A stretch of 64,000 nucleotides of DNA, taken from Allobosea caraganae. GTDB taxonomy: Bacteria > Pseudomonadota > Alphaproteobacteria > Rhizobiales > Beijerinckiaceae. Below the pieces are notes generated by a model. The model saw only the letters and a program-made list of their open reading frames with translations. It did no database searches and was not told the DNA's origin. Below, piece after piece: positions 3,225-30,600 of the stretch; position 1 is the stretch's first letter, and each line of letters opens with the position of its first letter. The position numbers and the translations under genes are program-made. The stretch is from the NCBI RefSeq assembly GCF_003351345.1, contig NZ_QQTO01000007.1, positions 1 to 64,000 on the forward strand. Reading direction: 5' to 3'.

Positions 3225-3260
3225 AAACGGGATGCCCTGACTAACTTTGGGATTCCCTGC
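3225..3260 (+). promoter_or_regulatory. Tandem GGGAT boxes (site a) ahead of the HdeD-like gene
   Basis: GGGATGCCCTG (3229) and GGGATTCCCTG (3249) are direct repeats with starts exactly 20 bp apart and differing at one of 11 positions. The second begins 138 bp before the ATG at 3387. Equivalent pairs precede three other operons in the segment. Regularly spaced direct repeats of about two helical turns are typical of AraC-family activators. Confidence 0.6.
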
Positions 3261-3386
3261 TCATCCGCCTCCTCATCAGGACCGGCATAACTAAGCGTGT
3301 CTACGGTCGCCGGTCGTTCTCAGGCGTCTCCGGCCTGGCAGCCGGCACGTGCGGCCTGGACGCGGAGCTCGGGGGATACAGGACCC

Positions 3387-3959
3387 ATGGCCAAGACCTT
3401 GTCCCAATCAACTGGAGACCTGCCCGGTCACGGCCTTGTCCGGGCGCTGTCGGGCAAGATGATCGCGCTGGGGATCATCCTGATCATTTGCGGGGGCGTC
3501 GCGATCGCGAGCCCTGCCATCTCGACCATGGCCGTCACCTTGTTCCTCGGACTGGTCCTGGCGGTGGGCGGCATCGTGAAGATCGTCCAGTCCTTCCTGA
3601 TGAAGGAATGGGGCGGCTTCGTCTGGCAATTGCTGGTCGGAATGATCGAATTGCTCGGTGGCCTGCTCGTCTACTTCAACCCGATGAAGGGTGCGGTCGC
3701 CATCGCCATCGTCATCGCGCTCGTGCTGATGGCGGAGGGGCTCGCCCAGCTCGGGCTCGCCTTCAGGATGCGCGCGCGGCGCGGCGTGGTCTGGATGTTC
3801 CTGTCCGGCATCGTCTCGATCGTGGTCGGCGCGGCGCTGGCGCTGCGGCTGCCCTATGACGGGGTCTATGCGCCCGGCACGCTCGTCGGCATCTCGCTCG
3901 TCTTCGCCGGCTGGGCCTATATCGCGATCGTGCTGGCCGCCCGCAGGGCCGCCGCCTGA
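3387..3959 (+). CDS. HdeD-like membrane protein (DUF308)
   Basis: A 190-residue integral membrane protein with about six transmembrane segments and the repeated DUF308 pattern (GIILIICGGVAIASPAIST, then GMIELLGGLLVYFNPMKGA). HdeD of Escherichia coli supports acid resistance at high cell density; the molecular activity of the family is not known. The ATG at 3387 was chosen because GGGGGATACAGG lies just upstream; the frame is open earlier but those codons do not look like this family. It is the first gene after the tandem GGGAT boxes and probably runs with the hydrolase 32 bp downstream. Confidence 0.88.
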   Translation: MAKTLSQSTGDLPGHGLVRALSGKMIALGIILIICGGVAIASPAISTMAVTLFLGLVLAVGGIVKIVQSFLMKEWGGFVWQLLVGMIELLGGLLVYFNPMKGAVAIAIVIALVLMAEGLAQLGLAFRMRARRGVVWMFLSGIVSIVVGAALALRLPYDGVYAPGTLVGISLVFAGWAYIAIVLAARRAAA

Positions 3960-3991
3960 GGGCGAAGACGAGATTCCCGAAGGGCGACAGG

Positions 3992-5479
3992 ATGCGTGGT
4001 TTCATCGGCAAGACGCTGAGGCGAGGCGCTGCGGTTCTCGTGATCGTCGCGCTCTCCCTGTTCGGATTGCGCATCTACGACACCCAGCGCGGTGCGCCGC
4101 TCGAGCCCTGGCATACCTTCGTCCCGCAGGAGCTCTCGCTCGCCGAGCTCGATCGCGGCAGTTGGGCCGACTACCTGAAGGCGGAGGATGCCGCGTTTGC
4201 CAGCGTCCGGGCCGAGGTCACGCAGAAGCTGGCGCCGGACGAGCGCATCCCGGTCAATCGCTATTTCGATGGCAGCGCGATCTATCCCGGCCATTTCAAG
4301 CAGGACTGGAACCGGTCCTACGTCATGGAGCCGCAGGGCAAGCCGGTCGGCGTTGCGGTCTTCCTGCACGGGTTGACGGATTCGCCCTACAGCCTGCGCC
4401 ATGTCGCCCGGCAATATCGCGATCGCGGCTTCCTCGCCATCGCGATCCGCCTGCCCGGCCATGGCACGGTCCCGGCCGGCCTCAGCGAGGTCGAATGGGA
4501 GGATTGGCTTGCGGCGACGCGCCTGGCCGTGCGAGAGGCGAGGCGGCGTGTCGCTCCCGACGTGCCGCTGCATCTGGTCGGCTTCTCGAATGGCGGGGCG
4601 CTCGCACTGATGTATGCGCTCGACGCGATCGAGAACCCTGAGCTGGCGCGGCCGGACCGCATCGTGCTGATCTCACCGATGGTCGGCATTACCGCCTTTG
4701 CGCGCTTCGCCGGGCTTGCGGCGCTGCCCGCGTTCCTGCCGCGCTTTGCCAAGGCGGCCTGGCTGAGCGTCCTGCCGGAGTTCAACCCGTTCAAGTACAA
4801 TTCGTTTCCGGTCAATGGCGCGCGGCAGTCGCATCTGCTGACCAATGCCTTGCAGCAGAAGATTTTGCAGCTGGCGCGTGCTGACCGGTTGAAGGACCTG
4901 GCGCCGCTCATCACCTTCCAGTCGGTGATGGATTTCACCGTGAGCACGCGGGCCATCATCACCTCGCTCTATGCGCATCTTCCCGCCAATGGCAGTGAGC
5001 TCGTGCTGTTCGACCTGAATCGCTCGACCAAGTTCGGGCCGCTGCTCAGCTCGGCCTCCGACACGCTGCTGACCCGCATCCTGCCGGCGCCACCGCGCAA
5101 TTTCCGGGTTGCGGTCATCACCAATGCCAGCGCTGATTCCAGCGCCATGGTCGAACGGGTGACGGAGGCTGGCGCGAGCGCGGAGACGGTGCGCGATCTC
5201 GGCCTGTCCTATCCGTTCGACGTGTTCTCGCTCTCCCACGTCGCCCTGCCGTTTCCGACCAGCGATGCGCTCTATGGCCTCAACCCCGATCCGGGCGAGG
5301 ACTTTGGCATCAAGCTCGGCGCCGTCGCGGCGCGGGGCGAGCGCGGCACCCTCATCGTGAACCTGGATTCGCTGCTGCGCATGTCGTCGAACCCGTTCTT
5401 TCCCTATCTGATCGACAGGGTCGACGAGCCGTTGCGCGGTATGGCGCCGGCATCGACGGCGGTGCCGACCAGCAAGTAG
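3992..5479 (+). CDS. Membrane-anchored alpha/beta-hydrolase
   Basis: A 495-residue protein with one amino-terminal transmembrane anchor (about residues 12-27), so the catalytic part is probably periplasmic. The serine hydrolase core is clear: the oxyanion strand FLHGLTDSP (about 124-132), RLPGHGT and the nucleophile elbow GFSNGG with Ser199. A carboxyl-terminal His is suggested by FSLSHVALPFP. The protein is longer than typical lysophospholipase-like hydrolases, with an extra carboxyl region after the catalytic core. Substrate cannot be told; an esterase or lipase acting at the envelope is reasonable. It follows the HdeD-like gene on the same strand and converges with the SLC13 gene, 13 bp away. 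Confidence 0.85.
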   Translation: MRGFIGKTLRRGAAVLVIVALSLFGLRIYDTQRGAPLEPWHTFVPQELSLAELDRGSWADYLKAEDAAFASVRAEVTQKLAPDERIPVNRYFDGSAIYPGHFKQDWNRSYVMEPQGKPVGVAVFLHGLTDSPYSLRHVARQYRDRGFLAIAIRLPGHGTVPAGLSEVEWEDWLAATRLAVREARRRVAPDVPLHLVGFSNGGALALMYALDAIENPELARPDRIVLISPMVGITAFARFAGLAALPAFLPRFAKAAWLSVLPEFNPFKYNSFPVNGARQSHLLTNALQQKILQLARADRLKDLAPLITFQSVMDFTVSTRAIITSLYAHLPANGSELVLFDLNRSTKFGPLLSSASDTLLTRILPAPPRNFRVAVITNASADSSAMVERVTEAGASAETVRDLGLSYPFDVFSLSHVALPFPTSDALYGLNPDPGEDFGIKLGAVAARGERGTLIVNLDSLLRMSSNPFFPYLIDRVDEPLRGMAPASTAVPTSK

Positions 5480-5492
5480 CGTCGGACTTCGC

Positions 5493-7298
5493 TCAGAACC
5501 GCCAGATCAGCGGCACGTAGAACACCGACATGATGAAGAACCAGATCATCAGCGGCGTGCCGAGTTTCCAGTAGCTGCTGAAGCTGTAGCCGCCCGGGCC
5601 CATCACCATCAGGTTGGTGGCGGTGGCGATCGGGGTCAGGAAGGAGGCTGCGCCAGCAACGCATAGGCTCATCATGATCGGCCGCGGCGAGACGCCCATG
5701 CTGGTCGCCGCCGCCATGGCGATCGGGATCACCAGCATGGTCGTCGCCGTGTTGCTCATGATCTGGCCGAGGCTCGCGGTCAGCACGAAGAGCCCGGCGA
5801 GAAAGACGAGCGGACCGGCGCCACCCGTGAGCGCGACGAGGTGGTCGGCGACGAGCTGGGCCGCGCCCGATTGCACCATGGCGGTCGAGAGCGGCATCAT
5901 CGCGCCGACGAGGATCACGGTCGTCCAGTTGATGGCGCGATAGGACTGCTCGACCGAGACGATACCCGCGACGATCAGCGCGCAGGCTGCCGTCAGCCCC
6001 GCGACCGCCGGCGGCACGATGCCGGTGGCGAGCATCAGCACGAGGCCGGCAAGCGCCGCGACTGCGATACCGGCGCCGGTGCCCATCGGCACGGCCTGCC
6101 GCCTGACGAGATCGGGCGAGTTGACCACTAGCACGTCGGGATCGTCGAGTCGGAGGTCGAGTGCCTTCCAGCTGCCCTCCAGCAGGATCGTGTCGCCGGC
6201 CTGGAGCACATCGCTCGGTTCGAGGTCGGCGCCCGCACGCTGCACCGCGAGCACGACGAGGTCGCCGCTATCGGTGACCATGCCCGGGAACATCTGGCGG
6301 CCGATCAGGGCTGAGCGCGGCGGGATGACGACTTCGGCAAGGCCGGAATGACGGCTGAACAGGCTCTGCCCTTCGTCGGCGGCATCGTCGCGCAGGGCGA
6401 GGTGCTTCTCCGCCGCGAACTTTGCCGCCGCTTCGGCATCACCCTTCACCAGCAGGTAGTCGCCCTCGGAGACTGCTGGCGCACGCAGTGGCGTTGCGGA
6501 GGCCCCGGCCTGCACCGCCATCAGCTCGAGGCCCGGATACCCGGCCAAATCCACATCCGCCGGCGCCATGCCGACATAGGGGGAGCTGGCGCGGATGCGC
6601 AGCCGGAAGACGCCGTCGACCAGTCCGTAATGCTCGACCAGCGTCTGGGCGTGGCGACTGAAATCGGCGGGCAGCCGCGCGCTGCTCTGCTCCGGTAGCA
6701 GGCGCCTGCCGAGCAGCAGGATGATCGCCATCGTGCCCAGCAGGAGCGGCAGCCCGACCAGCGCGAACTCGGCGAAGCCGAAGCCCGGCAGGCCGGCATC
6801 CTCCAGCGCCTCCGAGACCAGGATGTTCTTCGGCGCGCCGGTGAGCAGCATGTTCGCTCCGGCATGGGCGGAGAAGGCAAGCGGCATCAGCAGTTGCGAG
6901 GGCGACTGGCGCAGGCGGATCGCCGCCATGACCACGACCGGCATCAGCGCCGCCACCGCCCCGCCGCCGCTGATCAGGGCGGTCAGGCAGCCGGCGGCCG
7001 TCATGATGATGATCAGCAGGCGCGTGCGGTTGTTCTCGCCGGCCTTGGCGATGAGGATCTGGCCGGCCCAGGCGGTCACGCCGGTCTTTTCGAGCGCCGC
7101 GCTGACGATGAACAGGCTGGCGATGAAGAGCACGGCGCGATCGCCGAAGCCTGCCAACGCCTGTTCCAGCGTGACCACGCCGGCCGCCCAGAGCGACAGG
7201 GCGGCGGCGAAGGCGACGACGATCACCGGCAGCCTGTTCCACGCGAACAGGGCGATCGTGACGGCGATGATGATCGCGGTGCTTTCAATCGGGCTCAC
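5493..7298 (-). CDS. SLC13-family permease with TrkA-C domains (copy 1)
   Basis: A 601-residue secondary transporter of the SLC13/ArsB-like (CitMHS/DASS) superfamily. Membrane helices of the first half (to about 205) carry the FSAHAGANMLLTGAPKN loop; two central TrkA-C (RCK_C) ligand-binding segments follow (about 225-400: RIRASSPYVGMAPADVDL, then EVVIPPRSALIGRQMFPG); the second membrane half has SNTATTMLVIPIAMA and FLTPIATATNLMV. Families of this plan take up or expel anions such as sulfate or dicarboxylates. Starts at GTG (MSPIES). It lies 128 bp after the antiporter operon on the same strand and may be co-transcribed. A close paralogue is at 33634. Confidence 0.88.
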   Translation of the reverse strand: MSPIESTAIIIAVTIALFAWNRLPVIVVAFAAALSLWAAGVVTLEQALAGFGDRAVLFIASLFIVSAALEKTGVTAWAGQILIAKAGENNRTRLLIIIMTAAGCLTALISGGGAVAALMPVVVMAAIRLRQSPSQLLMPLAFSAHAGANMLLTGAPKNILVSEALEDAGLPGFGFAEFALVGLPLLLGTMAIILLLGRRLLPEQSSARLPADFSRHAQTLVEHYGLVDGVFRLRIRASSPYVGMAPADVDLAGYPGLELMAVQAGASATPLRAPAVSEGDYLLVKGDAEAAAKFAAEKHLALRDDAADEGQSLFSRHSGLAEVVIPPRSALIGRQMFPGMVTDSGDLVVLAVQRAGADLEPSDVLQAGDTILLEGSWKALDLRLDDPDVLVVNSPDLVRRQAVPMGTGAGIAVAALAGLVLMLATGIVPPAVAGLTAACALIVAGIVSVEQSYRAINWTTVILVGAMMPLSTAMVQSGAAQLVADHLVALTGGAGPLVFLAGLFVLTASLGQIMSNTATTMLVIPIAMAAATSMGVSPRPIMMSLCVAGAASFLTPIATATNLMVMGPGGYSFSSYWKLGTPLMIWFFIMSVFYVPLIWRF

Positions 7299-7426: not shown

Positions 7427-9058
7427 TCAGGCTCCAAGCATCAGCGCGCCTGCGAGCAGGGCTGCAATTGTCACGAGTGACAGCCCTGCTGCCGGCCATC
7501 GACGCAAGGCGGCGTCGGCCTGCTGGATGCCGAGGATCAGGCGGCCGAGGGCCGGACTCCCAACCTCTGCGAGCACGACGATATCACCTTCCGGAATGGC
7601 TCCCCGCAATTTCGGAAGCCGGCTGACGGCGATCATCGCGAGCCCACCCAATGCCATCGGCCAGAGCAGCTTCCAGAGCGCCTCGGCCTGGAACAGGCTC
7701 TGCACGGTCTCGCCGGCAATGGCGGGGTAGAGCGACCAGGGGATGACCAGCGAAGCTGCCGCGACTGCGAGCCAGGGCAAGACCTGTCCGGGCGGGGCCG
7801 AGGCTTCGGGATTCTGCCTGGCATCACGGGCGACCGTCGCGAGGAAATGCAGCATCAGGAGCGTGCTGCCGACTCCGGCAAGGGTCATGGCGTAGCCGAG
7901 TGCGCCATAGCCGAGCATCGGCTTGGTCGCGAGCTTGGCCAGCGCGCCGCTGGTCAGCGGCATGCCGCCGAGGCTGAGCGCGAGGATGGCCGTCAGCAAC
8001 AGGACGGGGCGCAGGCGCGCACCGCCGGTTGCGGCCAGGATGCCGACGGCCAGGAAGAGTGCGCCCTTCACCAGCGTGTGGTGCACCGCGTAATAGGCGA
8101 CAAGCGTCGTCGCGCCCGTGTCGGCGTTTTCGAGGCCGGTGCCGATCAGCACGGCGAGCAGGCCCATCTGGCTGACCGTGGAATAGGCGAGGACGGTCTT
8201 GGCCCGCGTCTGGGTCACGCCAATGGCGACGCCATAATAGGCCGTGACGATTCCGACCGCGATCAGCACGGTTCCCCAGACCGGCACTCCGGTCTCGAAG
8301 GGCAGGAAGCGGATCAAGCCGATCACGCCGGCCTTGACCACCACGCCGCTGAGCACGGCCGAGGCCGGCATCGGGGCGGCCGGGTGGGCCAGCGGCAACC
8401 AGATATGCAGCGGCACGAGCCCCATCTTCAGCCCGAAGCCGAGGATGAGGAGGGCCATGATACTGTCGCGCATCGGCGACGCGGGCAAGGTCGCGACGAC
8501 GTCGCGGATCAGCGGGTTGGCGTCGGGATGGCTGGCCGCGAGCATGACGAAGGCCAGCAGCAGGCAGGCTTCGCTGAGCAGGGCGAGGACGACATAGACG
8601 ACGCCCGCCCTGTGTGCGCTCGCCGTTTGTTCGTGGACGATGAGCCCGTAGGCGGCCAGGCTGACCAGCGTGTAGACGAGGTAGAAGCTCGCGACGTCGC
8701 CGACGATGAAGACGCCGAGGCTCCCAGCCAGGGTCAGCAGCCACCAGACCGCGAAGCGCACCGTCGCCGGCTTCCGGCCCATATAGGGCGAGGCGAAGGC
8801 GCCGGCAGCGCTCCACAGAAGAGCCGCGCCGCCGAGCAGGATGGCGCCGGGCCGATCAAGCACCAGCGACATCCGGAACGGAGCCGGAAAGAACACGAAG
8901 GTGCCGTCCGGGACTAAGAACGCAGCCAGCAGCGCCGGGAGCGGCGCGGCGGCGAGCAGGAACGGTGCGCGCGCGCGGATGCCGCGGGACAGGCAGCAAG
9001 CCGCCATGGCGAGCGGCACGAGCACCGCGGCGGCCAGCAGCAGGCCGGAGGCGGTCAT
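7427..9058 (-). CDS. mnhD: Mrp-type antiporter D-like subunit 2
   Basis: A 543-residue proton-conducting-subunit homologue (NuoM/NuoN/MrpD family) with about 14 membrane helices. The transmembrane-7 Lys is present (Lys211 in GFGLKMGLVPLHIWLPLAHP) together with a second Lys in VVVKAGVIGLIRF. The TM5 glutamate that is normally essential is replaced by Thr130 (FYLVYTLVSLAAY), whereas the neighbouring D subunit keeps it. Start codon ATG at 9058 overlaps the stop of the previous gene by four bases (ATGA). It is the last antiporter gene of the operon. Part of the Mrp/Mnh sodium(potassium)/proton exchange complex by homology. Confidence 0.85.
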   Translation of the reverse strand: MTASGLLLAAAVLVPLAMAACCLSRGIRARAPFLLAAAPLPALLAAFLVPDGTFVFFPAPFRMSLVLDRPGAILLGGAALLWSAAGAFASPYMGRKPATVRFAVWWLLTLAGSLGVFIVGDVASFYLVYTLVSLAAYGLIVHEQTASAHRAGVVYVVLALLSEACLLLAFVMLAASHPDANPLIRDVVATLPASPMRDSIMALLILGFGLKMGLVPLHIWLPLAHPAAPMPASAVLSGVVVKAGVIGLIRFLPFETGVPVWGTVLIAVGIVTAYYGVAIGVTQTRAKTVLAYSTVSQMGLLAVLIGTGLENADTGATTLVAYYAVHHTLVKGALFLAVGILAATGGARLRPVLLLTAILALSLGGMPLTSGALAKLATKPMLGYGALGYAMTLAGVGSTLLMLHFLATVARDARQNPEASAPPGQVLPWLAVAAASLVIPWSLYPAIAGETVQSLFQAEALWKLLWPMALGGLAMIAVSRLPKLRGAIPEGDIVVLAEVGSPALGRLILGIQQADAALRRWPAAGLSLVTIAALLAGALMLGA

Positions 9059-10590
9059 GGCGCGATCACCGTCAGACTGTCGGGCCTGCCCAGTTGCAGG
9101 AATCCGAACGGCTGGAGCGGCACGAGGCCGAGCAGGACGGCCGCCAGTGCCAGGACCAGCGCCGCGAGTTCGAGCCGGCGCGGAATCGGCTTGCGCGGGG
9201 CGAGCGGGATCGCCGGCGTCGCCAGGGCGCGGTCGACGACACGGAAGACATAGCCACCTGCGAGCAGCCCGCCGGCCAGGATGGTGGCGGCGAGCCAGGG
9301 GTGGCCGCCAATGACGGCAGCTGTCAGCAGTAGGCATTTCGCGACGAAGCCGCCGCTCGGCGGAATCCCCATCAGCGACAATCCGGCAAGGCCGAAAGCC
9401 GCTGCGCTGATCGGGAGCGCCCGGCCGAAGCCGCCGAGATCGGAGATGCGGTCATGGCCGAAGGCCTCGGCGATGACGCCTGCCGCCAGGAACATGGCGG
9501 CCTTGGCGAGCGCGTGCGAGACGAGCTGGAGCGCCCCGCCGGTCCAGGCGATCGTGCCCCAGGGCGGCAACGTCTCGCTGCCGGCGGCGAGCGGGAAGAC
9601 GATGAAGAGATAGCCGATCTGCGCCACCGTGGAGTAGGCGATCATCAGCTTCAGCCGCGCCTGCTTCAGCGCCATGACGCTGCAGAACAGGATCGAGGCG
9701 GCGCCGAGAATGGCGAGGACCTGCCCGGCATAGGCCGCGGCCTGCGGCGGGGCGACATCGAGGATGAGCCGCAGGATCAGGAAGAACGGCGCCTTGATGA
9801 CCAGCGCCGAGAGGACCGCGCTCGCGGCGGCCGGGGCGCCGGCATGGGCGGGCGGCAGCCAGAGATGCAGCGGGAACAGGGCGGCCTTGGCGAGAAGGCC
9901 GGCGATCATCAGCGCCAGCGCCACCGAGAAGCCCGGTCCCTCCGCGCTTGCCTCCGAGAGCAGCCCGATGTCGAGCGTGCCGAAGCTGCCATAGAGCAGG
10001 GCGGTGCCGAGCAGGTAGAGCAGCGAGCCGAGCAGTGCGAACATCAGGTAGCGCAGCGCCGCGGCCACGGTTTCGGCGCGGCCGTCGAGGCAGACGAGCG
10101 GCACCGCAGCGAAGGTCAGCAGTTCCAGGGCGACGTAGAGGTTGAACAGGTCCTCGCCGACGAAGATCGCGTTCAGCGCGCTCCAGACCGCCATCAGCAG
10201 GATCCAGAACGTCGTCGGCGCCCGGCCGTGGCGCGTCGTGGGTTCGAGCCCATGCTGCGCATGGGCGAAGAAGCCGATGGCCGCGACGACCAGGGCCGTC
10301 ATCGCCAGCATCGCCACCGAGAGCCCGTCGGCCCGCAATGCGAGCCCCAGCGGGGGCTGCCAGCCGCCCACGACATAGGTGAGTGCGGCGCCGGTCCGCA
10401 GCAGTTCGACCACGATGGCGATGGCGACGCCCAGGCCGGTGGCGAGGGTCGTCAGTGCGATGCGCGCGGTCTGGCGCGGGCCGAGGGCCAGCATCGCGAG
10501 CACGGCGACCACCGGCAGCATGACCGCGAGGACAAGCAGGAAGCCGCCCGGCGTCGCGACATGGGCGGGCGCAGCCGCGAGCGGGGTCAT
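9055..10590 (-). CDS. mnhD: Mrp-type antiporter D-like subunit 1
   Basis: A 511-residue member of the proton-conducting antiporter family. The key charged residues are visible: Glu156 in LYVALELLTFAAV (TM5) and Lys235 in GLLAKAALFPLHLWLPPAHAG (TM7), with a further Lys in SALVIKAPFFLIL. These form the proton path in MrpD and in complex I NuoM/NuoN. It overlaps by four bases with both the C subunit upstream and the second D-like subunit downstream. Start ATG at 10590. The complex sits in the inner membrane and exchanges cations against protons. Confidence 0.9.
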   Translation of the reverse strand: MTPLAAAPAHVATPGGFLLVLAVMLPVVAVLAMLALGPRQTARIALTTLATGLGVAIAIVVELLRTGAALTYVVGGWQPPLGLALRADGLSVAMLAMTALVVAAIGFFAHAQHGLEPTTRHGRAPTTFWILLMAVWSALNAIFVGEDLFNLYVALELLTFAAVPLVCLDGRAETVAAALRYLMFALLGSLLYLLGTALLYGSFGTLDIGLLSEASAEGPGFSVALALMIAGLLAKAALFPLHLWLPPAHAGAPAAASAVLSALVIKAPFFLILRLILDVAPPQAAAYAGQVLAILGAASILFCSVMALKQARLKLMIAYSTVAQIGYLFIVFPLAAGSETLPPWGTIAWTGGALQLVSHALAKAAMFLAAGVIAEAFGHDRISDLGGFGRALPISAAAFGLAGLSLMGIPPSGGFVAKCLLLTAAVIGGHPWLAATILAGGLLAGGYVFRVVDRALATPAIPLAPRKPIPRRLELAALVLALAAVLLGLVPLQPFGFLQLGRPDSLTVIAP

Positions 10591-10934
10591 GGCTCGCTCC
10601 GCGGCAGATGCTCCGGCTGCGCTTCCAGCGTCTCGCGCCCGGTCAGGTCGAACAGGCGTTGCAGCAGCGCGACGGCGAGGGCCGTGGCCGAGAAGGCGAC
10701 GACGATGCCGGTGATCACCATCGCCTGCGGCACCGGATCGCCCTCGAAGCCGGCGCCGGCCCCGCGCCGGGCAACCGCGCCGAAGACGAGGAAGATGCCC
10801 GCGCCAAGGAGGTTGAAACCGACGATCCGGCGCAAGAGGCCGGGATGGGTGATCACCACGAACAGGCCGATGCCGACGAGGGCCGCCCCGCACAGCCCAA
10901 ACAGCGTCGCCGGGCCGAGCCATGCGGCAGTCAT
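10587..10934 (-). CDS. mnhC: Mrp-type antiporter subunit C (NuoK-like)
   Basis: A 115-residue protein with three membrane helices (LFGLCGAALVGIGLFVVI; LLRRIVGFNLLGAGIFLVFGAV; QAMVITGIVVAFSATALAVAL). This is the MnhC/NuoK fold; the QAMVITGIVVAFS motif is diagnostic. Family length is normal. Start and stop overlap neighbours by four bases, so translation is coupled along the operon. Confidence 0.9.
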   Translation of the reverse strand: MTAAWLGPATLFGLCGAALVGIGLFVVITHPGLLRRIVGFNLLGAGIFLVFGAVARRGAGAGFEGDPVPQAMVITGIVVAFSATALAVALLQRLFDLTGRETLEAQPEHLPRSEP

Positions 10935-11863: not shown

Positions 11864-12150
11864 GGGCCGGACTTGCGGCGATACACGGCGCCGGCGATGA
11901 GCTGGCTCGCGGTCGCGGCCGAGAGTTGCGCCAGCAGCCAGACGCAGACCAGTTTCAGGCCGGCCGTCACGCTGTCGCATTGGGGCAGGAGGCCAATGAC
12001 GATCAGGCCGAGCCCGAGATTGTCGGCCTTGCTGAGCGCGTGCAGGCGGCTCAGCGTATCGGGAAAGCGCAGCAGGCCGAGCGTGCCGGCGAGAAACAGG
12101 ATCGCGCCGGCCGTGACGAAGAGCAGCGTGAAGGCGTCGGCCGGTGCCAT
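11860..12150 (-). CDS. mnhG: Mrp-type antiporter subunit G
   Basis: 96 residues, three membrane helices, with the MnhG/PhaG signature GTLGLLRFPDTLSRLHALSKADNLG. ATG at 12150 overlaps the mnhF stop by one base; a GTG at 12153 would give a four-base overlap. Small accessory subunit needed for assembly and activity of the Mrp complex in studied systems. Confidence 0.92.
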   Translation of the reverse strand: MAPADAFTLLFVTAGAILFLAGTLGLLRFPDTLSRLHALSKADNLGLGLIVIGLLPQCDSVTAGLKLVCVWLLAQLSAATASQLIAGAVYRRKSGP

Positions 12151-12440
12151 CACGCGCCATCCTCCCTGCGTTCGGCCCCTTCGACGCTGGGGCTCGCCTG
12201 GCCGAGTGCGAAGGCTGCGCAGGAGAAGGCGGCGAACAGCATAAGCAGCAGGGCGACGTCGGTCATCGCGCCCGTCCCGGAGGCTGCTCCGAGAAGCAGG
12301 AGTGCGGCGGCCCCTCCGGTGCCGAGCAATTGCACGGCCATCATGCGCTCGACCGCGAATTCGGCGCGCAGCACCCGGAACAAACCGAGCGCCGTAACGG
12401 CCAGGATGAAGAGTGCTGCGCCGGTCAGGATGTCAGCCAT
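12150..12440 (-). CDS. mnhF: Mrp-type antiporter subunit F
   Basis: 96 residues with three hydrophobic segments and the MnhF signature FRVLRAEFAVERMMAVQLLGTGG. It overlaps the end of mnhE by eight bases. In the studied complexes this subunit is a small membrane component required for exchange. Nothing unusual was seen. Confidence 0.9.
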   Translation of the reverse strand: MADILTGAALFILAVTALGLFRVLRAEFAVERMMAVQLLGTGGAAALLLLGAASGTGAMTDVALLLMLFAAFSCAAFALGQASPSVEGAERREDGA

Positions 12441-22281: not shown

Positions 22282-25200
22282 CGTGCAGAAACTCCCATGG
22301 CGGCTTTGGCCGGGGCTCCCGCCGTCTTCGGTGCAGACGAGCCGCGACCGAAGACGGTAACGTAGAGAACAGGCAGCAGGACGAGGGTGAGGACTGTCGC
22401 GACGAGGAGGCCGCCCATGATGGCGAGGGCCATAGGTCCCCAGAACACGGTCGGCGCGATCGGGATCATGCCGAGCACCGTCGAGACCGCCGTCAGCATG
22501 ATCGGCCGGAAGCGCGTGCCGGCGGCATCGAGCGCCGCCTCGACGACGCCCTTGCCGGTGGCCCGCTCGGCCTCGATCTGACCGACCAGGATCACCGCGT
22601 TCTTGGTGATGATGCCGATCAGGGCGAGGATGCCGAGCAGCGCGACGAAGCCGAGCGGCTTGCCGGAGAGGAGCAGCGCTCCGACCACGCCGATCAGGCC
22701 GAGCGGCGCAATGCTGAGCACGATGGCGAGCAGCCTGAAGCTGCGCAACTCCGCCATCAGCACGGTGAACATGATCAGGAGCATCACCGGCACGACCGCG
22801 ATGACCGAAGCCTGCGACTTGGCGCTTTCCTCGACGGTTCCGCCCACAGCGATGCCATAGGCCGGCGGCAGCGTTTTCCTCAATTCGTCGATGGCGGGCT
22901 GCAGCGCGGTGACGACGGTCTCCGGCAATGTTCCGGGCTTGACGTCGGCGGCGACGGTCAGGTTCGGCACTCGGTCGCGCCGCCAGATCAGCGGTGCGTC
23001 GAGCCCGTAGCTGAAGGTGACGAACTGCGACAGCGGCACCGAGCGGCCGCCGGGCAGGGCGACCTGCATCGTCCGCAGCGTCTCCAGCGAGACGCGGTCG
23101 GCATCCTGGGCGCGCACGACGACGTCGACGAGGTAGATGTCGTCGCGCACCTGCGTCACGACCGTGCCGGAGACGACCGCGTTCAGGGTCGTCGCCAGCG
23201 CCTGCGAGCTCAGGCCGAGGCGGCGCGCCTCGTCCTGGTCGACGCGCAGGCGCAGTTCGCGTGACGGCTCGATCCAGTCGAAATTGACCTGCTCGGCCTT
23301 GGGATTCGCCGCGACGACCTGGGCGAGCTTCATCGCGATCGACCGGACTTCGGCGATATCAGGCCCGGTGACGCGATATTGCACCGGCCAGCCGACGGGC
23401 GGCCCGAGTTCGAGCGGGTAGACACGTGCGACGACGTTCGGAAACTGGTTGGCCAGAAGCGCTTCCAGCTTGGTCTTCAGCCGCTCGCGCGCCGCAACGT
23501 CCTTGGCGACGATCACCGCTTGGCTGAAGAAGTCGTTGGGCAGCTGCGCATTCAACGGCAGGTAGAAGCGAATGGCGCCGCGGCCGACATAGGTGCTCCA
23601 GCGCTCGACATCGGGATTGCCTTTCAGCGCCGCGTCGAAGCGGGTCGCGAGCTGCTCGCTGGCGTAGATCGAGGCGTTTTGCGGCAGCGTGAGGTCGACG
23701 AGCAGTTCGGGCCGGTCGGAGGCCGGGAAGAACTGCCGCGGCACCAGCGGTAGCGCCAGCACGGAGGCCGCGAACAGTGCCAGCGTTACCGCGATCGTGA
23801 TCCAGCGTAGCCTGATCGCACGCGAGAGCAGGTTCCTGAAGGTCCGTTCGACCCGCCCGGGTCCGGAGCCGGCCGATGCCGCATCCGGGGCCTTCAGCAT
23901 TGCGACGCCGAGCACGGGCGCGAAGATCACGGCCACGAACCAGGATACGACCAGGGCGATGCTGACGACGGCGAAGAGCGTAAACGTGTACTCCCCGGCG
24001 CCGCTCGCCGCGAAGCCGATCGGGACGAAGCCGGCTATGGTCACCAAGGTCCCGGCCGCCATCGCCATGGCGTATTTCTGGAAGGCGTAGGTCGCCGCCT
24101 TGGTCTTTTCCTCGCCGGCCGCCAGGCGCGTCACCATCGCGTCGGTCGTGGTCATGGCGTCGTCGACCAGCAGCGCGAGCGCGATGATCAGGGCGCCGAG
24201 CGAGATGCGCTGCATGTCGATGCCGCTGACCAGCATCCCGGCGAAGACGATGGCGAGCGTCAGCGGAATCGACAGGGCGACGACGAGTCCAGGGCGCACG
24301 CCCAGGCTGATGAAGCTCACGACCAGGATGATCCCGACCGATTGCCAGAGCGAGGTCATGAAGTCGGCGATGGCGTGGTCCACCGTCACGGCCTGGTCGG
24401 CGACGAGCCAGGGCTCGATGCCGAGCGGCAGGTTGGCGGTGATCCCCGCCATGACCTCGGTGATGTTCCGGCCGAGCGCCAGGATGTCGCCGCCGTCGCG
24501 CATCGCGATGCCCAGCCCGATCGCGTCCTGGCCGTTGACCCGGAACATCGGTTGCGGCGGGTCGGCCTGGCCGCGGCGCACCGTGGCAATGTCGGCGAGG
24601 CGGACCATGCGGTCGCCGACCGGGAAGTTGACGCTGAGAAGGTCCGCCTCGGATTGGAAGGCGCCGGAGACGCGCAGCGAGAGCTTCTCGTCCTGCGTCT
24701 GGATGATGCCGGCGGGCCGCACGACGTTCTGGCTCTGCAGGGCGCCGAGCAGCGCATTGCGGTCGATGCCGAGATTGGCGAGCTCCCTGACCGAGAACTC
24801 GACGAAGATGCGTTCGTCCTGCGCGCCGATGATCTCGATCTTCGAAACGTCGGGTACGAGCAGCAGGCGCGAACGGGCCGCCTCGACATGGTCCCGCAGC
24901 TCGCGGCTGGTGAAGCCGTCGGCGGTAAAGCCATAGATGATTCCAAAGGTGTCGCCGAACCGGTCGTTGAAGAACGGGCCGAGCGTGCCCGCCGGCAAGG
25001 TATGCCGCATGTCGGCGACGAGATTGCGGACCCTGTACCAGGTGTCCTGCACGTTGCGCGCTGGGATCGACTCCTTCAGGTTGACGAAAATCGTAGTCAC
25101 GCCGGGCGTCGTGTAGCTGCGGACGGTGTCCAGGCCGGGCGTCTCCTCGAGCTGGCGTTCGAGCCGCTCGGTGACCTGTGTCAGCGTGTCCTCCATGGTC

Positions 25201-25367
25201 GCCCCCGGCCAGGCCGCGGAGACCACCATCGACTTGATGACGAAGGACGGGTCTTCGTTGCGGCCGAGCCGGACGAAGGCGAGCACGCCGGCTGCCACCG
25301 CGATGATCATCAGGTAGATCACGACCGAGCGGGTCTTGAGCGCCCATTCCGAGAGGTTGAAGCTCAT
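22278..25367 (-). CDS. RND efflux pump inner-membrane subunit
   Basis: 1029 residues, the usual length of AcrB/MexF/VexF-like pumps. Twelve membrane helices with two large periplasmic loops. The proton-relay pair Asp402-Asp403 in ALLVDDAMTTTD is present. The sequence GIITKNAVILV and the carboxyl GRGSSAP end fit the hydrophobe/amphiphile RND group of the type found with paired adaptors. Substrates cannot be read from sequence. No TolC-like outer-membrane gene lies in the window, so the pump must use one from elsewhere. Confidence 0.92.
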   Translation of the reverse strand: MSFNLSEWALKTRSVVIYLMIIAVAAGVLAFVRLGRNEDPSFVIKSMVVSAAWPGATMEDTLTQVTERLERQLEETPGLDTVRSYTTPGVTTIFVNLKESIPARNVQDTWYRVRNLVADMRHTLPAGTLGPFFNDRFGDTFGIIYGFTADGFTSRELRDHVEAARSRLLLVPDVSKIEIIGAQDERIFVEFSVRELANLGIDRNALLGALQSQNVVRPAGIIQTQDEKLSLRVSGAFQSEADLLSVNFPVGDRMVRLADIATVRRGQADPPQPMFRVNGQDAIGLGIAMRDGGDILALGRNITEVMAGITANLPLGIEPWLVADQAVTVDHAIADFMTSLWQSVGIILVVSFISLGVRPGLVVALSIPLTLAIVFAGMLVSGIDMQRISLGALIIALALLVDDAMTTTDAMVTRLAAGEEKTKAATYAFQKYAMAMAAGTLVTIAGFVPIGFAASGAGEYTFTLFAVVSIALVVSWFVAVIFAPVLGVAMLKAPDAASAGSGPGRVERTFRNLLSRAIRLRWITIAVTLALFAASVLALPLVPRQFFPASDRPELLVDLTLPQNASIYASEQLATRFDAALKGNPDVERWSTYVGRGAIRFYLPLNAQLPNDFFSQAVIVAKDVAARERLKTKLEALLANQFPNVVARVYPLELGPPVGWPVQYRVTGPDIAEVRSIAMKLAQVVAANPKAEQVNFDWIEPSRELRLRVDQDEARRLGLSSQALATTLNAVVSGTVVTQVRDDIYLVDVVVRAQDADRVSLETLRTMQVALPGGRSVPLSQFVTFSYGLDAPLIWRRDRVPNLTVAADVKPGTLPETVVTALQPAIDELRKTLPPAYGIAVGGTVEESAKSQASVIAVVPVMLLIMFTVLMAELRSFRLLAIVLSIAPLGLIGVVGALLLSGKPLGFVALLGILALIGIITKNAVILVGQIEAERATGKGVVEAALDAAGTRFRPIMLTAVSTVLGMIPIAPTVFWGPMALAIMGGLLVATVLTLVLLPVLYVTVFGRGSSAPKTAGAPAKAAMGVSAR

Positions 25368-26470
25368 CGCGGCTCCGTCCCGGCCAGCCGGACGTGCTGG
25401 CCTTCCTTCAGAAGGCTGGCGCCGGCGGTGACGACAATGTCGCCAAGTGCGAGGCCCTTCTGGATGAGGGCCTCGGCAGGGTCGGCGCTGAGCACGTCGA
25501 GCTTCCGCATTGAGACGGTGAGGCTCTTGGGATCGACGATCCAGACGCCTGTGTCCTGCCCGCGCCGTGTCAGGGCCGTCGCCGGGATGGCGGTCCCGGA
25601 GGATTCGCTGCCTCGGATCGCGCCCGAGACCGCCGTGCCGAGGCGGAACGATTGCGGCGGCTCGGACAGGCCAACCCTGACCCGGAACGTCCGCGTCACC
25701 GGGTCGGCCTGCGGCGCGACCTCGCGCACACGACCGTTGACCGTCACGCTCGGATCGCTGGAGAGCGCGACATGCACGCGTGCGTCGGGCGGCAGCGTGC
25801 GGACCGCATCGGCCGGCACTTCGAAGACGGCATCGCGCCCCTCGCGCCTGGCGAGTTGCACGATCATGCGGCCGGCCGCGACGACTTCGCCCGGCTCGGC
25901 GCCGACGCGGGTGACCAGACCCGGCGCGTCGGCCTTCAAAGTCGTGAAGCCGACCACGTCTTCCGCTGACCGCACGCGCGCCTGCGCTGCGTCGACCTGC
26001 GCCTGCGCCGCGGTGCGCCCCTGCTCGGCGGCCTCGAAATCCGCCCGCGTCGTCACATTGCGCTCAAGCAGGTGGCTCTGGCGCTGCAACTGGTTCTCCG
26101 CTGTCCGCAACAGGCCTTGGGCGCTGACGAGAGCGGCCCGTGCCGAGCGCAACTCGTTGAGTTCGTTTTCCGGATCGAGGCGGGCGACGACGTCGCCCTC
26201 GCGCACGCTCGTGCCGACGCCGACCGTCCGCTCCGCCAGCCGTCCACTGACGCGGAAGGCCAGCGAAGCCTGGTCCTGCGCTTCGATATGCCCGGTGAAG
26301 CTGACATCGGCCGCTTCCCGCGGAGGCTCGACCGTGATGGTGCGCACCATCCGGACAGGTGGCGGAGCCATGGCGTCGTCTCGGTTGCAGGCTGCGACAG
26401 AGACGACGATGGCCGCGAGCGCCACGGCATTCCGGTATTGCGCGAAACTGGCCGTGCGAGGCGCGCTCAT
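25364..26470 (-). CDS. RND periplasmic adaptor, lipoprotein (first copy)
   Basis: 368 residues from ATG 26470 (GGGGA 7 bases upstream); ATG 26542 with GGGAG is an alternative giving a longer leader. Lipobox VSVAAC with Cys28. The hairpin (about 100-170) and barrel motif GRVREVAPQADPVTRTFRVRVGL identify an RND membrane fusion protein. First gene of an eight-gene minus-strand unit running to 14972: adaptor, pump, adaptor, M17 homologue, DUF1269, repeat membrane protein, patatin, AI-2E-type permease, most joined by four-base overlaps. Confidence 0.9.
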   Translation of the reverse strand: MSAPRTASFAQYRNAVALAAIVVSVAACNRDDAMAPPPVRMVRTITVEPPREAADVSFTGHIEAQDQASLAFRVSGRLAERTVGVGTSVREGDVVARLDPENELNELRSARAALVSAQGLLRTAENQLQRQSHLLERNVTTRADFEAAEQGRTAAQAQVDAAQARVRSAEDVVGFTTLKADAPGLVTRVGAEPGEVVAAGRMIVQLARREGRDAVFEVPADAVRTLPPDARVHVALSSDPSVTVNGRVREVAPQADPVTRTFRVRVGLSEPPQSFRLGTAVSGAIRGSESSGTAIPATALTRRGQDTGVWIVDPKSLTVSMRKLDVLSADPAEALIQKGLALGDIVVTAGASLLKEGQHVRLAGTEPR

Positions 26471-26696
26471 GCCTGCGTCCCCGTGGGTCGGGCCGACGTC
26501 GATTGCGGACTTGTTGCGCCGGTCAGCCCGCTGCCGCGACATGGTTTCTCCCGCAAGCCTTCCGGATTCATCATGCTTTTCCTCAGGCAACCGTAAGGCG
26601 GAGGCCGTGGAATCTCGGACGCAAAGCGAGATCCGTCGCACCAATCTCTTCGGATGGCGCAATGGACGCTATCAACAGCGCGGGACACGCGGATTA

Positions 26697-26734
26697 GCTC
26701 AGAATCCCAATTCTGCGCTGGTCATCCCAATTTT
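26697..26734 (-). promoter_or_regulatory. Tandem GGGAT boxes (site c) ahead of the RND operon
   Basis: On the minus strand AATTGGGATGACC is followed 20 bp later by AATTGGGATTCTGAGC. The second box with its flank (GGGATTCTGAGCTAATCCGC) matches site a at 16 of 20 positions. It lies 238 bp before the ATG at 26470 or 166 bp before the alternative at 26542, just past the 3' end of the MFS gene. The orientation is that of the RND operon. Confidence 0.55.
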
Positions 26735-27930
26735 CCGAGCGGTGGCTCCACCTCCGCAGCGACGGCGAGCGGGAGGAGATCGTCGCGTCTGAGGTTGGCC
26801 GCGACGGGGATCAGGAGCAGGACGCCGACGCCCGCGGCAGCGGCCATCAGGCCATAGATGTGCTCGCCCCACGAGCCGTACAGATAGCCGGCAAGCGCGG
26901 TCAGGGCCGCCATCGCCCCGGCCCAGCCGGCAGCCAGCCAGGCCTGAGCCTGGGCCAGCATCCCGCGCGGAGCGAATTTGGCGAGTAGGAAGACGCTGCT
27001 CAGATGCGTCGCCCCGAAAGTCAGGCCGTGCATCAGCTGGAGAAGGACGACGAAGGCGATATCGGGATCCGCGGCCATCCCAGCCCAGCGCAACGTGGCA
27101 ACCACTCCGCTGATGGCGAGCAGAGCGGCGGCGCCGGCTGGGCCGCGCACGACATGTCCCAGTAAGCTGAAGACGGTGATCTCGGAGACGATGCCCGCTG
27201 CCCAGAGGCTGCCCATGGTTCCGCCCGAAATGCCGAGGCTCTGCCAATGCAGCGTGCTGAAGCCATAGACGGCGGCATGGCTCGCCTGAACGAGCGCTGC
27301 GCCGGCGATGGTCAGGACCAGCAGATGCGGCCGCCCACGCCCCACGGTCGTTTCCCCGGAAACGGCTGGCGCCTCTGGCATGCGCATCCGCGCCACGACG
27401 ATCGCAGCGAGCGCGGTTGCCAGCGCCGAGAGCAGCAGCATTCCGATGATGGAGGATGCCGGAAGCCAGTCGAGCAGCCAGCCCGCAGAGAGACTGGCCA
27501 GGGCGAAGCCTGCCGAACCCCAAAGGCGGATGCGTCCATAACGGAGCTCGGCGGAACGCAACCCGTTCAGGCTGCGCAAGGTCACGGCATCGGTCAGGGC
27601 GATCAGCGGTCCTTGAGCGAGCGCAATCGCGACCACCAGGAGCAGGATCGGCAGGAAGCCGCGGGCAAATGCGAGCAGGGCAGTTCCGATGACGACGGCG
27701 CCCGAGCACACGACCAGTGCGGCGGACATGCGCCCATGCCGGTCGGCAAGGGCGCCGACGACCGGGTTGGCAACAATGCGGATCAGCAGAGGCGCGGCGA
27801 GCACGATCCCGATCGCCTCGTCGCCAAGCGATTGCGAACGCAGCCAGAGCGGGAAGAACGGCAGATTGACGCCGAGTTCGAAGAATAGCGCCGCATAGAG
27901 AAAGGAGAGGCGCCCGGTAGCCCGGTTCAT
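26722..27930 (-). CDS. MFS permease (HcaT-like group)
   Basis: 402 residues with twelve membrane helices. The amino end (YAALFFELGVNLPFFPLWLRSQSLGDEAIGIVLAAPLLIRIVANPVVGALADRHGR) is characteristic of the MFS_1-like/3-phenylpropionate permease (HcaT) group. Substrate is not known. Start ATG at 27930, 11 bp after the AraC gene stop, so the two form one unit and the regulator probably controls this carrier. The end of the gene touches the tandem boxes of the next operon. Confidence 0.85.
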   Translation of the reverse strand: MNRATGRLSFLYAALFFELGVNLPFFPLWLRSQSLGDEAIGIVLAAPLLIRIVANPVVGALADRHGRMSAALVVCSGAVVIGTALLAFARGFLPILLLVVAIALAQGPLIALTDAVTLRSLNGLRSAELRYGRIRLWGSAGFALASLSAGWLLDWLPASSIIGMLLLSALATALAAIVVARMRMPEAPAVSGETTVGRGRPHLLVLTIAGAALVQASHAAVYGFSTLHWQSLGISGGTMGSLWAAGIVSEITVFSLLGHVVRGPAGAAALLAISGVVATLRWAGMAADPDIAFVVLLQLMHGLTFGATHLSSVFLLAKFAPRGMLAQAQAWLAAGWAGAMAALTALAGYLYGSWGEHIYGLMAAAAGVGVLLLIPVAANLRRDDLLPLAVAAEVEPPLGKLG

Positions 27931-27940
27931 GCCGGATGCC

Positions 27941-29053
27941 TCAGCCTTGCCGGCTGGCCGGCGGGGCTGCGAATGATTGAGGGCCGGTGCGGCCATCTTC
28001 GCTGCCTCGTGCCGCTGACGAACTGGGCGCGATGTCCGGTGTTGCGTCGTGGAGGCCAAGCGGTTGCGTAGGCAGCCTGGCGAGGCTCCGCTCGCGCGCC
28101 TCGGTCGGGCTGTAGCCGAATTCGCGCCGGAATGCCCGGCTGAACGTCGAGTGATCGATGAAGCCCACTTCGTTGCCGATGACGTGTATCGAGAGGGCGT
28201 CGCGAGGCGAGTTGAGCCGGCGATGAGCCTCGCGCAGCCTTTCGCGATTGATGAAATGGGCGACGCCGCCGGTGCTCTCGAAGAACCGGTAGAGTTTGGA
28301 GCGGGACATCGCCATCAGCCGGGCCAGCTGCTCGGGGCCGAATTCGGGGGCGGCCATGTTCTGCCGGACGACGAGGCGGGCCCGATCGATCAGAAGCGAG
28401 GCGAGGGGAGCTTCCGCAGCTTCGGAGCGCTCCGCGCGCGGCGCGATGCAGGCTGCGACGAGCGAGCGGGTCGCGGCGGCCAGGCCGTGCGCATGGTCCG
28501 GCGGTATATGCGGCAGCTGCCGGGCGAGATTGTCCATGTAGCCCGCCAGCAGAGCCCCTAACTCGGGATCGATGTCGAGGTCATGCGCCCGCTCGAATTC
28601 CTCGAGCTCATCCCGGCAGAAATCCCGTGGCAGGAACAGTGTCAGCACTTCCGTATCCTCGGCCTGCCCCTCGAATGGCAGGGCCAGCGAGCGGAAGCTG
28701 AGACTGCCCTGGCGCGCGTTCGCCAAGGGTAGCGAGTCCTGGCGGTCGGAACGGGAATGCGCGAGCACGACGCACCAATGGTCGAGGAAGGACCTCTGCC
28801 GGTGCCGCCAACGGCGCGCGGGCGCGTTGGCGTAGAGCGTTCTCGTGAAGACGACGTCCCCGAACGTCCAGCAGGAAAATTCGGCCTCGAATGTCTCCGC
28901 GGCTTCCGGCGTCGGCAGCAGGTCGATCGTCTCGGCCAGCAGGGAGCGCCATGCATCGAACTGGTCTTCGGGGCGCAAGTCCTTCGTCGAGAACCGTCGA
29001 GCAAAAGCAGCGTCGGTCGATGCCTCCGGACTGGTAAAAGAGATGGCCCGCAC
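27941..29053 (-). CDS. AraC-family transcriptional regulator (FeaR-like)
   Basis: 370 residues. The amino part (FSTKDLRPEDQFDAWRSLLAETIDL... WTFGDVVFTRTLYANAPARRWRHR) fits the AraC_binding_2 sensor domain. The carboxyl AraC DNA-binding domain spans about 230-335 with two helix-turn-helices (GPEQLARLMAMSRSKLYRFFESTGG; VIGNEVGFIDHSTFSRAFRREFGYSPTEAR). A Ser/Ala-rich tail of about 35 residues follows. The start is GTG at 29053, supported by GGAAGGAGG 6 bases upstream. Members of this family bind two tandem half-sites about 20-21 bp apart, as seen ahead of four operons here; that link is inference. Confidence 0.88.
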   Translation of the reverse strand: MRAISFTSPEASTDAAFARRFSTKDLRPEDQFDAWRSLLAETIDLLPTPEAAETFEAEFSCWTFGDVVFTRTLYANAPARRWRHRQRSFLDHWCVVLAHSRSDRQDSLPLANARQGSLSFRSLALPFEGQAEDTEVLTLFLPRDFCRDELEEFERAHDLDIDPELGALLAGYMDNLARQLPHIPPDHAHGLAAATRSLVAACIAPRAERSEAAEAPLASLLIDRARLVVRQNMAAPEFGPEQLARLMAMSRSKLYRFFESTGGVAHFINRERLREAHRRLNSPRDALSIHVIGNEVGFIDHSTFSRAFRREFGYSPTEARERSLARLPTQPLGLHDATPDIAPSSSAARGSEDGRTGPQSFAAPPASRQG

Positions 29054-29229
29054 GACATCCTCCTTCCACTGACGTTGATGCAGCTTAGAGCCGAGGTCAT
29101 CCGCGAAAAGGTTGATTTCCTACATGTGCTGAAGAAAGTGTCGCGCCCTGCGCTAACATTGGCAAGCAATAAACCGCTGAAATTTTCTAAGCTGGCGGAA
29201 GTGACTGATCCCCTACGGCAATCCGGCTC

Positions 29230-30552
29230 TTATCGGCGTGGCGACGCGGCGTCGAATACCCGTATCGGCGCGGTGACGAGCAAGGTTGCTGCGGAACCGA
29301 ATGCATCAACTGCCAGCAATGGGCCGGACGTGTCCGAGTCGGTGATGACCTGCCCCTGCAGCAGCCTGTCGCCGATGAGGCGGACCGCTTGGGGGCTGGC
29401 CGCATAGAGGTCGTGGTTGATGCGGTCGCCGGCGTTGATGGCGCTGAGATCGAGCACGGTTATACCTGATAGGCCTGCCAACTGCTGCTGGTACTCATCG
29501 CGCGTCAGGTCGATTCCGCCGAGACGCGTCGCACCCCGCGAGATGAAGCGGGAGAGCTGCAGTGCCCGGTCGTTCTGCGAGACGAACAGCGTGATCCGCG
29601 GACGCTGCGGCCCCATGTCCTCGACCTGCCGCCTGAACACGCCGACATCGAGATCGGGCGAGGCAAGGACCAGGTTGCTGATTTTCCGGGGCACGCCGCC
29701 GCGTTCCAGCGCCAGCTGCCGGATGGCCTCCACCGCCGGCCAGCTTCCCATGGAATGGGCCAGGATGATGATCTCGCCAACGGATGGGCTGCTCGCGGCC
29801 GTCTTCAGAAGGTAGGCAAGGTCCGAGCGCGAATACGACGCATTGTCGAAATCGCGGCTGTAATCAAGCAGATGGCCCCGAGAGGGCCATGAGAACAGGA
29901 CGGGTGAAGCCTCGGCGTCGGCATCGTGCGTCAGTTGGGCGAAGCGAAAGACCGCCCGGTCGAATGGGGTGTTGAACCCGTGCACGAAGACGAAGACGCG
30001 CCGCTGTCGCCCGCCCGTCATCCGGAACCAGCTCGCGAGCTCCGCCTTGGCGACAGGATTCGCGGACGTGACGACAAAATCCGTGGCTGGATTGCCCGGC
30101 ACGCTGCGCGGCAGCTGGATGGTGCCGATCTCGCGCTGCCCGGGAATGGAGACGACGATGTTGCTGAACGAGACACCGTCGCCGCGGTCGCCACTATAGA
30201 GAACACCGGTTTCGTCGGAGGGCGCGCGCGTGGTCGCGGCGAGCATGTTGACGCGGTCGGTTCCAGGAACGGGCGCGACCGGCACGAGCATTCCTCTCGG
30301 CGCGGATGCGCAACTCGCGAGGGCGAGCGCCAGCATGATGCTCGCAACCGGCCCATGCCGGGGGCGGCATCGCGAGGGCCAGCCTCGGGGCGCGGGCTCG
30401 ACAACGCGGGGCAGCTTGGTGAGCGAGCAGCGATCGGCCGCGCCGCCGTGCCCTTTGCCGGTCGTTGGTCTCACGTCGACCCGCTCCATCCGCCGCATGA
30501 GATCGAGGCTTCCGATCGGCGTCAGAATAAAGAACCTGTCCGGTAGCGGCAA
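29230..30552 (-). CDS. DUF900 alpha/beta-hydrolase, predicted lipoprotein
   Basis: Up to 440 residues; the true start is uncertain because a lipobox (IMLALALASC) appears about 80 codons in, so translation probably begins later than 30552, perhaps at the ATG or GTG of the MERVDVRP stretch. The DUF900 domain is clear: RVFVFVHGFNTPFDRAVFRFAQL, VLFSWPSRGHLLDYSRDFDNASYSRSDL, the nucleophile elbow LAHSMGSW and LVLASPDLDVGVFRRQ. Members are serine hydrolases of unknown substrate, often exported. It diverges from the AbgT unit, whose tandem boxes lie close to its 5' end. Confidence 0.8.
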   Translation of the reverse strand: MPLPDRFFILTPIGSLDLMRRMERVDVRPTTGKGHGGAADRCSLTKLPRVVEPAPRGWPSRCRPRHGPVASIMLALALASCASAPRGMLVPVAPVPGTDRVNMLAATTRAPSDETGVLYSGDRGDGVSFSNIVVSIPGQREIGTIQLPRSVPGNPATDFVVTSANPVAKAELASWFRMTGGRQRRVFVFVHGFNTPFDRAVFRFAQLTHDADAEASPVLFSWPSRGHLLDYSRDFDNASYSRSDLAYLLKTAASSPSVGEIIILAHSMGSWPAVEAIRQLALERGGVPRKISNLVLASPDLDVGVFRRQVEDMGPQRPRITLFVSQNDRALQLSRFISRGATRLGGIDLTRDEYQQQLAGLSGITVLDLSAINAGDRINHDLYAASPQAVRLIGDRLLQGQVITDSDTSGPLLAVDAFGSAATLLVTAPIRVFDAASPRR

Positions 30553-30564
30553 TACGTACGGTAA

Positions 30565-30600
30565 CTTTGGGACAGGCGGCCCAAGTTTTGGGATTCTGTG
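30565..30600 (+). promoter_or_regulatory. Tandem GGGAY boxes (site b) ahead of the AbgT operon
   Basis: CTTTGGGACAGGCGG (GGGAC at 30569) and GTTTTGGGATTCTGTG (GGGAT at 30590), starts 21 bp apart, direct orientation. The second box lies 135 bp before the AbgT ATG, nearly the same as the 138 bp at site a. GGGATTCTG is shared exactly with site c. Confidence 0.6.

Follow-up and report, generated by a model that had tools for sequence, protein, structure and literature searches.

We propose that an AraC-like protein encoded at positions 27941–29053 activates four promoters of a 36-kb island in Allobosea caraganae through tandem bipartite binding sites, a reading that sequence comparison suggests with a probability of roughly 0.83. 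All positions refer to a stretch of 64,000 nucleotides (64 kb), hereafter the window. The element is most likely a conserved operator of the AraC/XylS type serving a local four-promoter regulon, and its mechanism is probably ordinary. As a gene switch of Bosea-like soil bacteria, the regulon is apparently undescribed; no earlier description was found in the open-licence literature that we searched.

The initial annotation had claimed four pairs of GGGAY boxes at a distance of 20–21 bp, and all four are present with the positions and strands it gave. The boxes start at 3229 and 3249 on the plus strand in site a (spacing 20), at 30569 and 30590 on the plus strand in site b (spacing 21), at 26728 and 26708 on the minus strand in site c (spacing 20), and at 13052 and 13032 on the minus strand in site d (spacing 20). 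We thereby confirmed that the four box pairs are real. Every pair is directed at a gene start, as had been claimed, and the annotated distances to the start codons (138, 135, 238 or 166, and 96 bp) as well as the 16 of 20 letters shared by sites a and c downstream of the boxes agree by eye. Sites a, b and d are intergenic, and site c includes the TGA stop codon (26724–26722) of the MFS gene before it. No other GGGAY pair at 20 or 21 bp occurs in the window, and the 58 remaining combinations of strand and spacing (10 to 40 bp) hold five pairs altogether. First-order Markov resampling of the window gave a mean of 1.53 pairs, with at least four in 16 of 200 resamplings, and four pairs at some two adjacent spacings were reached in 127 of 200. 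We dropped pair counting as proof, four observed versus about 1.5 expected not being significant. Because the pair count says little on its own, conservation of the wider sequence was examined. We count the element as real because this wider sequence is conserved in relatives, not because of the boxes themselves.

The claim that the GGGAY boxes form a helically phased direct repeat held for the repeat and its phasing and required a refinement, in that a single box supplies just one of the two halves of a bipartite half-site. This half-site reads GGGAY-N5-GC-N2-A, and each site contains two of them as a direct repeat of 20–21 bp. An alignment of 31 sites drawn from several families has its invariant and nearly invariant positions in two identical GGGAY-N5-G-N3-A patterns; A14, G21, A25, G31, A34 and G41 are invariant in this alignment, and A45 and T46 are conserved in at least 90%. 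The distance from box A to box B within a half-site corresponds to one helical turn and that from half to half to two turns. On the plus strand, the distal and proximal half-sites are located at 3229–3243 and 3249–3263 in site a, a type also found in the genomes G013, G017 and G006, and at 30569–30583 and 30590–30604 in site b. On the minus strand, they are located at 26714–26728, with the MFS stop codon inside, and 26694–26708 in site c, and at 13038–13052 and 13018–13032 in site d.

We searched for the extended element with R1, a sequence-only model from 20 sites, and with the broader model R2. The whole-genome scan that the initial annotation had proposed, run with R1 over the 6.17-Mb genome, gave exactly four full sites, all of them in the window, with E-values between 1.4e-12 and 6.4e-7; the next match had an E-value of 0.27 and half the length. 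R2 returned the identical four sites, followed by a match at E 0.70. The concern that the pairs might occur at background frequency is thus borne out for the bare pairs, whose counts fall within chance, but not for the extended element, which is rare genome-wide. Conservation, the other point raised, was found as well, the sites being kept in relatives upstream of the same or related genes. Within the genus, R1 (E ≤ 0.1) detected 54 sites in 18 of 41 genomes, and these are the same 18 that carry the MnhE of the cluster. A scan with the AraC protein retrieved 21 loci, seven of them named Bosea and two Chelatococcus. Among the 11 closest loci (L001–L011), exact box pairs are present in both the b and c positions in ten; the eleventh, L009, without AbgT in the stretch examined, has weaker sites in these positions by R1. 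The flanks around the sites have diverged among relatives.

G013 and G017 have all four sites a–d. G006 is without the HdeD of the cluster, and its site a stands immediately before the hydrolase gene. In Agaricicola (L019), where the stretch searched contains no Mrp gene, a d-type site directly precedes the CitMHS gene, which in the window closes the Mrp block. Because of these two arrangements, the site seems to track the transcription unit rather than a single gene. Rearranged sites were also observed. In G030 (L145:5377–5516), AbgT and a block c gene that has been relocated are separated by two sites set back to back, a degenerate one of the b type (13 bits) and a strong one of the c type (43.6 bits). 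No close AraC is encoded nearby, and the arrangement may represent a rewired bidirectional control region; one G030 contig starts within site c. In G016 (L137:10877–10927), the AraC gene is located at the opposite end of the cluster and is preceded about 0.3 kb upstream by a site on the opposite strand, possibly for autoregulation.

The sites are followed by a conserved hexamer. We predict −10 elements at 3286–3291 for promoter a (plus strand; CATAAC, with CATAAT in G017), at 30626–30631 for promoter b (plus strand; TAAGGT) and at 12990–12995 for promoter d (minus strand; TACTTT), and an extended −10 element at 26666–26671 for promoter c (minus strand; TGNTAGCGT). TANNNT begins 36 or 37 nt past the first letter of box A in the second half-site in 42 of 55 sites, many of which are homologous, and at any other offset between 25 and 49 in at most three of the 55. 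For this count 60 sites were submitted, and five without a clean box pair (L171 8122, L194, L195, L196 and L198, all arginine-antiporter sites) were removed. When the hexamer is taken as the −10 element, the second half-site spans approximately −49 to −35 of the predicted transcription starts, which would lie near 3298 (a), 30638 (b), 26659 (c) and 12983 (d), and the proximal half-site adjoins or covers the −35 position of the predicted promoters. A scan for full sigma-70-type promoters gave no match in the four site regions. This silence says little because only 0–0.1 matches were expected per region; a missing match is what activator-dependent promoters would give, but chance would give it as well. 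Promoter c is predicted to be internal, between the MFS and RND genes on one strand. The start codon of MrpE is probably nearer 12936 because the longest frame (12999) opens upstream of the predicted start of promoter d.

The segment holding all four pairs had been described as bounded by repeats, and we located a perfect 23-bp direct repeat at 3142–3164 and 39233–39255 on the plus strand. It has two copies in the whole genome, which bracket the sites and the 36-kb cluster, and it is absent, with up to two mismatches allowed, from five relatives. The repeat pair is a candidate integration scar. The unique bracketing repeat and the occurrence of MnhE in 18 of 41 genomes of the genus make the cluster fit an accessory, transferable block that would have integrated here. 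To the left of the repeat, 129–2953 encodes a protein with a NO VEIN C-terminal domain, an AlpA-like protein and a DUF6088/AbiEi-type protein, genes of kinds common in defence or phage-related DNA.

Operon a consists of an HdeD-like membrane protein (DUF308; 3387–3959, plus strand) and an alpha/beta hydrolase (3992–5479, plus strand). Operon d, on the minus strand, probably covers the Mrp-type Na+/H+ antiporter genes at 7427–12999 (two D-like genes, a B/D/E fusion, F at 12150–12440, and E), and a CitMHS/SLC13-type transporter (5493–7298, minus strand) stands at the end of the block. Block c (14972–26542, minus strand), presumably a single transcript, encodes HlyD, an RND permease, a second HlyD, an M17 aminopeptidase, a DUF1269 protein, a conserved 578-aa protein (17193–18929) with a sub-threshold pentapeptide match only, a patatin and an AI-2E family transporter. 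The MFS transporter before it (26722–28059, minus strand) resembles 3-phenylpropionate transporters below the model cutoff. A DUF900 alpha/beta hydrolase (29230–30552, minus strand) diverges across site b from the AbgT family transporter (30725–32275, plus strand; listed frame opening at 30668), the first gene of operon b, which might extend through an M20 peptidase and a second CitMHS transporter (32321–35469, plus strand). An amidohydrolase follows at 35865–37478 on the plus strand, and the frame at 35856–36641 on the minus strand is its shadow frame. The R1 genome scan found no site before this amidohydrolase.

The proposed regulator (27941–29053, minus strand) carries a C-terminal AraC double helix-turn-helix (HTH_18, E 5.5e-15; HTH_AraC, E 4.7e-7). 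Its closest solved chain is PDB 5nla, which we take to be CuxR of Sinorhizobium meliloti, with residues 15–328 of 370 related at E 2.7e-45. The RFSTR stretch of 5nla, presumably the RxxxR motif of CuxR, reads RFSTK in the window protein, KFSTK in L001 and HFSTG in L004. CuxR uses an RxxxR motif, the residues of which are not specified in the accessible part of the source (PMC9045272). Because the candidate motif differs in all three proteins, c-di-GMP sensing as in CuxR is not supported. The first recognition helix is SRSKLYR or SRSRLYR in site users and SRTRLYQ in 5nla; this match is only suggestive because L012 and L013 also have SRSRLYR without a site on their short contigs. Among the genomes G000–G036, an AraC match at E ≤ 1e-40, a cut that we chose, is found in 15 of 37, the same 15 that carry sites; the match of G030 is only a 33% paralogue elsewhere in its genome. 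This co-occurrence within the genus reflects partly linkage, because the regulator and the sites share one island.

Across the order, 16 of 397 genomes had R2 sites at E ≤ 1e-3 and 8 of 397 had R1 sites. Thirteen of the 16 site-bearing genomes also belong to the 24 that have an AraC match at E ≤ 1e-45, where approximately one would be expected (hypergeometric p 1.6e-15, uncorrected for relatedness). When the training genomes are left out, seven of nine site-bearing genomes have the AraC protein (p 4e-9, likewise uncorrected), six of the seven being from one genus (g83) that was also a source of training sites and the seventh from a family (f24) also in training. The exceptions are G255, G338 (a fragment only) and G403, three of the 16, which have sites but no complete AraC passing this cut, and 11 of the 24 AraC-bearing genomes without a site at E ≤ 1e-3, among them G285 with a weaker c-position site. 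In G432, G361 and G410, whose own sites are outside training, the site starts 76–91 bp past the AraC match and precedes HlyD-RND genes, and on a Methylocella plasmid it lies between HlyD-RND and an AraC gene whose product is 39% identical. The suggestion that the AraC-family protein encoded at 27941 is the activator thus gains support from co-occurrence, with exceptions. In G170 and G265, the best AraC match is separated from the sites by 410 kb or located on a different contig, an arrangement that would fit AraC action in trans, and weaker homologues may be nearer.

Several related loci lack the site. Scans of 17 kb around the CuxR-type gene of S. meliloti with R1 (E ≤ 5) and R2 (E ≤ 1) gave no match, so this locus does not appear to use the operator. 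No R1 site at E ≤ 2 was found at Roseomonas and Ancylobacter plasmid loci with related pumps; the Roseomonas plasmid cluster, which combines a related AraC with glutaminase A, an RND pump and a patatin, has one partial R2 match (15.1 bits, E 0.005) and no full site. Neither model matched L012, L013, L014, L016, L017 or L018, which encode AraC relatives of 29–37% identity.

The genes behind the sites recur in relatives. Fourteen of 18 sites outside training face an arginine-ornithine antiporter (ArcD), an HlyD-RND pair or the hydrolase; the other four, L154 (G255), L190 (G403), L197 (G387) and L202 (G333), have no recognised target and were not counted as support. The hydrolase is the next gene after the site in G006, G170 and G265, and in G063 and G338 a site stands ahead of amidohydrolase relatives. 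In all four loci examined (G333, G363, Rhizobium sp. BK418 and G421), the antiporter is followed by arginine deiminase; this enzyme has been tied to acid resistance in other bacteria in the accessible parts of two sources (PMC3936950, PMC11172107). A second flavour of the site, with a degenerate distal box and a shared ACGCAAAGCATAGTT, was observed before arginine antiporter genes at L015:8637–8687 and L171:8119–8169 and is perhaps read by a related AraC branch.

The layout has counterparts among known AraC-family activators. The XylS site is located at −49 to −35. As far as the accessible parts of the sources describe them, XylS at Pm and MtlR at PmtlE are alike in combining an AraC-family activator with two bipartite half-sites in direct repeat; the sites of XylS, MekR and MtlR are direct repeats of bipartite halves (PMC4514859; for XylS also PMC5481539), the MtlR blocks lie at −72/−58 and −50/−36 (PMC4514859), and the repeat period is 21 for XylS and 22 for MtlR compared with 20–21 bp here. 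The half-site letters differ, being GGGAY-N5-GC-N2-A here and TGCA-N6-GGNTA or AGTGC-N5-AGTAT in the XylS/MtlR systems, and those regulators serve one catabolic operon, whereas one proposed regulator would serve four island promoters here. CuxR, despite being the closest solved relative, differs in having no matching site in the 17 kb around its gene and in a candidate motif that reads differently in the window regulator, L001 and L004.

We considered whether the sites are real and bound by another AraC-like protein or a factor encoded elsewhere, with the island AraC controlling something else. The genome itself has 14 AraC-like matches at E ≤ 0.001, the sites of G030, G255, G338 and G403 are without a close and complete AraC match, and only the best AraC match was placed in G170 and G265, so that weaker homologues could be nearer the sites. 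Such a binder is nevertheless unlikely, as the sites and this AraC branch occur together in several families, a site stands just past the AraC gene in several genomes, and the related CuxR-type locus lacks the site. The AraC protein might instead bind the sites as a repressor and keep the island off until a signal lifts the repression. AraC itself can repress, as is textbook knowledge, and the proximal half-site extends to the −35 position; yet neither inspection by eye nor the scan revealed a −35 match at the predicted promoters, and the layout is that of the activator-dependent XylS and MtlR promoters, which makes repression quite improbable.

The placement of a tandem motif before transporter genes could also suggest a transcribed RNA element in the leaders, such as a tandem hairpin or a riboswitch. 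The motif precedes the conserved −10 element and would consequently not be transcribed from that promoter, an Rfam search of the window at gathering scores returned no match, and the box spacing follows the DNA helix with one turn within and two between half-sites. We dropped this explanation, which has very little probability left. Chance pairs in GC-rich DNA would account for the bare pair counts, but the sites are kept at many loci while their flanks diverge, and the extended site is unique genome-wide, so that this explanation is close to negligible.

With activation by the AraC-like protein as the preferred reading, the element would be an activator-binding site of the AraC/XylS type, present in four promoters that have a −10 element and lack a recognisable −35. 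The regulator, most likely the island AraC-like protein, would bind as a dimer, each half-site receiving one DNA-binding domain, and would sense its signal through an N-terminal domain. Because the second half-site spans approximately −49 to −35, the bound regulator could contact RNA polymerase. When the signal is present, all four operons (HdeD/hydrolase, Mrp antiporter, RND pump and AbgT) would be turned on together.

The mdtEF RND pump belongs to the acid fitness island of E. coli. As described in the accessible part of PMC4918353, that island includes HdeD, and GadX controls hdeD; the GadX/GadW sites are of 42 bp according to a title in its reference list. The E. coli island (GadX/GadW/GadE) is similar in uniting HdeD, an RND pump and AraC-type regulators, and the present island differs by its Mrp, AbgT and peptidase genes, to which relatives add arginine deiminase. 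No glutamate decarboxylase or other proton-consuming enzyme was recognised among the window proteins searched. Based on the gene overlap with the acid fitness island and on the arginine deiminase behind the sites of relatives, pH or weak-acid stress might be the likeliest theme, which we favour only tentatively. A wider and equally provisional idea is an alphaproteobacterial AraC-controlled acid-fitness regulon that exists independently of the E. coli Gad system and whose single operator would serve interchangeable modules. The modules would be RND efflux, Mrp antiport, HdeD, and peptide and amino-acid breakdown, and elsewhere arginine/ornithine exchange with arginine deiminase. The island would integrate and move via the 23-bp repeats, carrying its own regulator and promoters.

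In summary, a 36-kb accessory island gains a precisely defined operator, predicted transcription starts for four promoters and a specific candidate regulator, and the same operator code can be read in other families of the order. Since distant relatives carry arginine deiminase behind the same site, the question of function can be tested directly. Previously unassigned pumps and antiporters become one testable response, which provides a lead on how these alphaproteobacteria may handle pH or toxic-acid stress.
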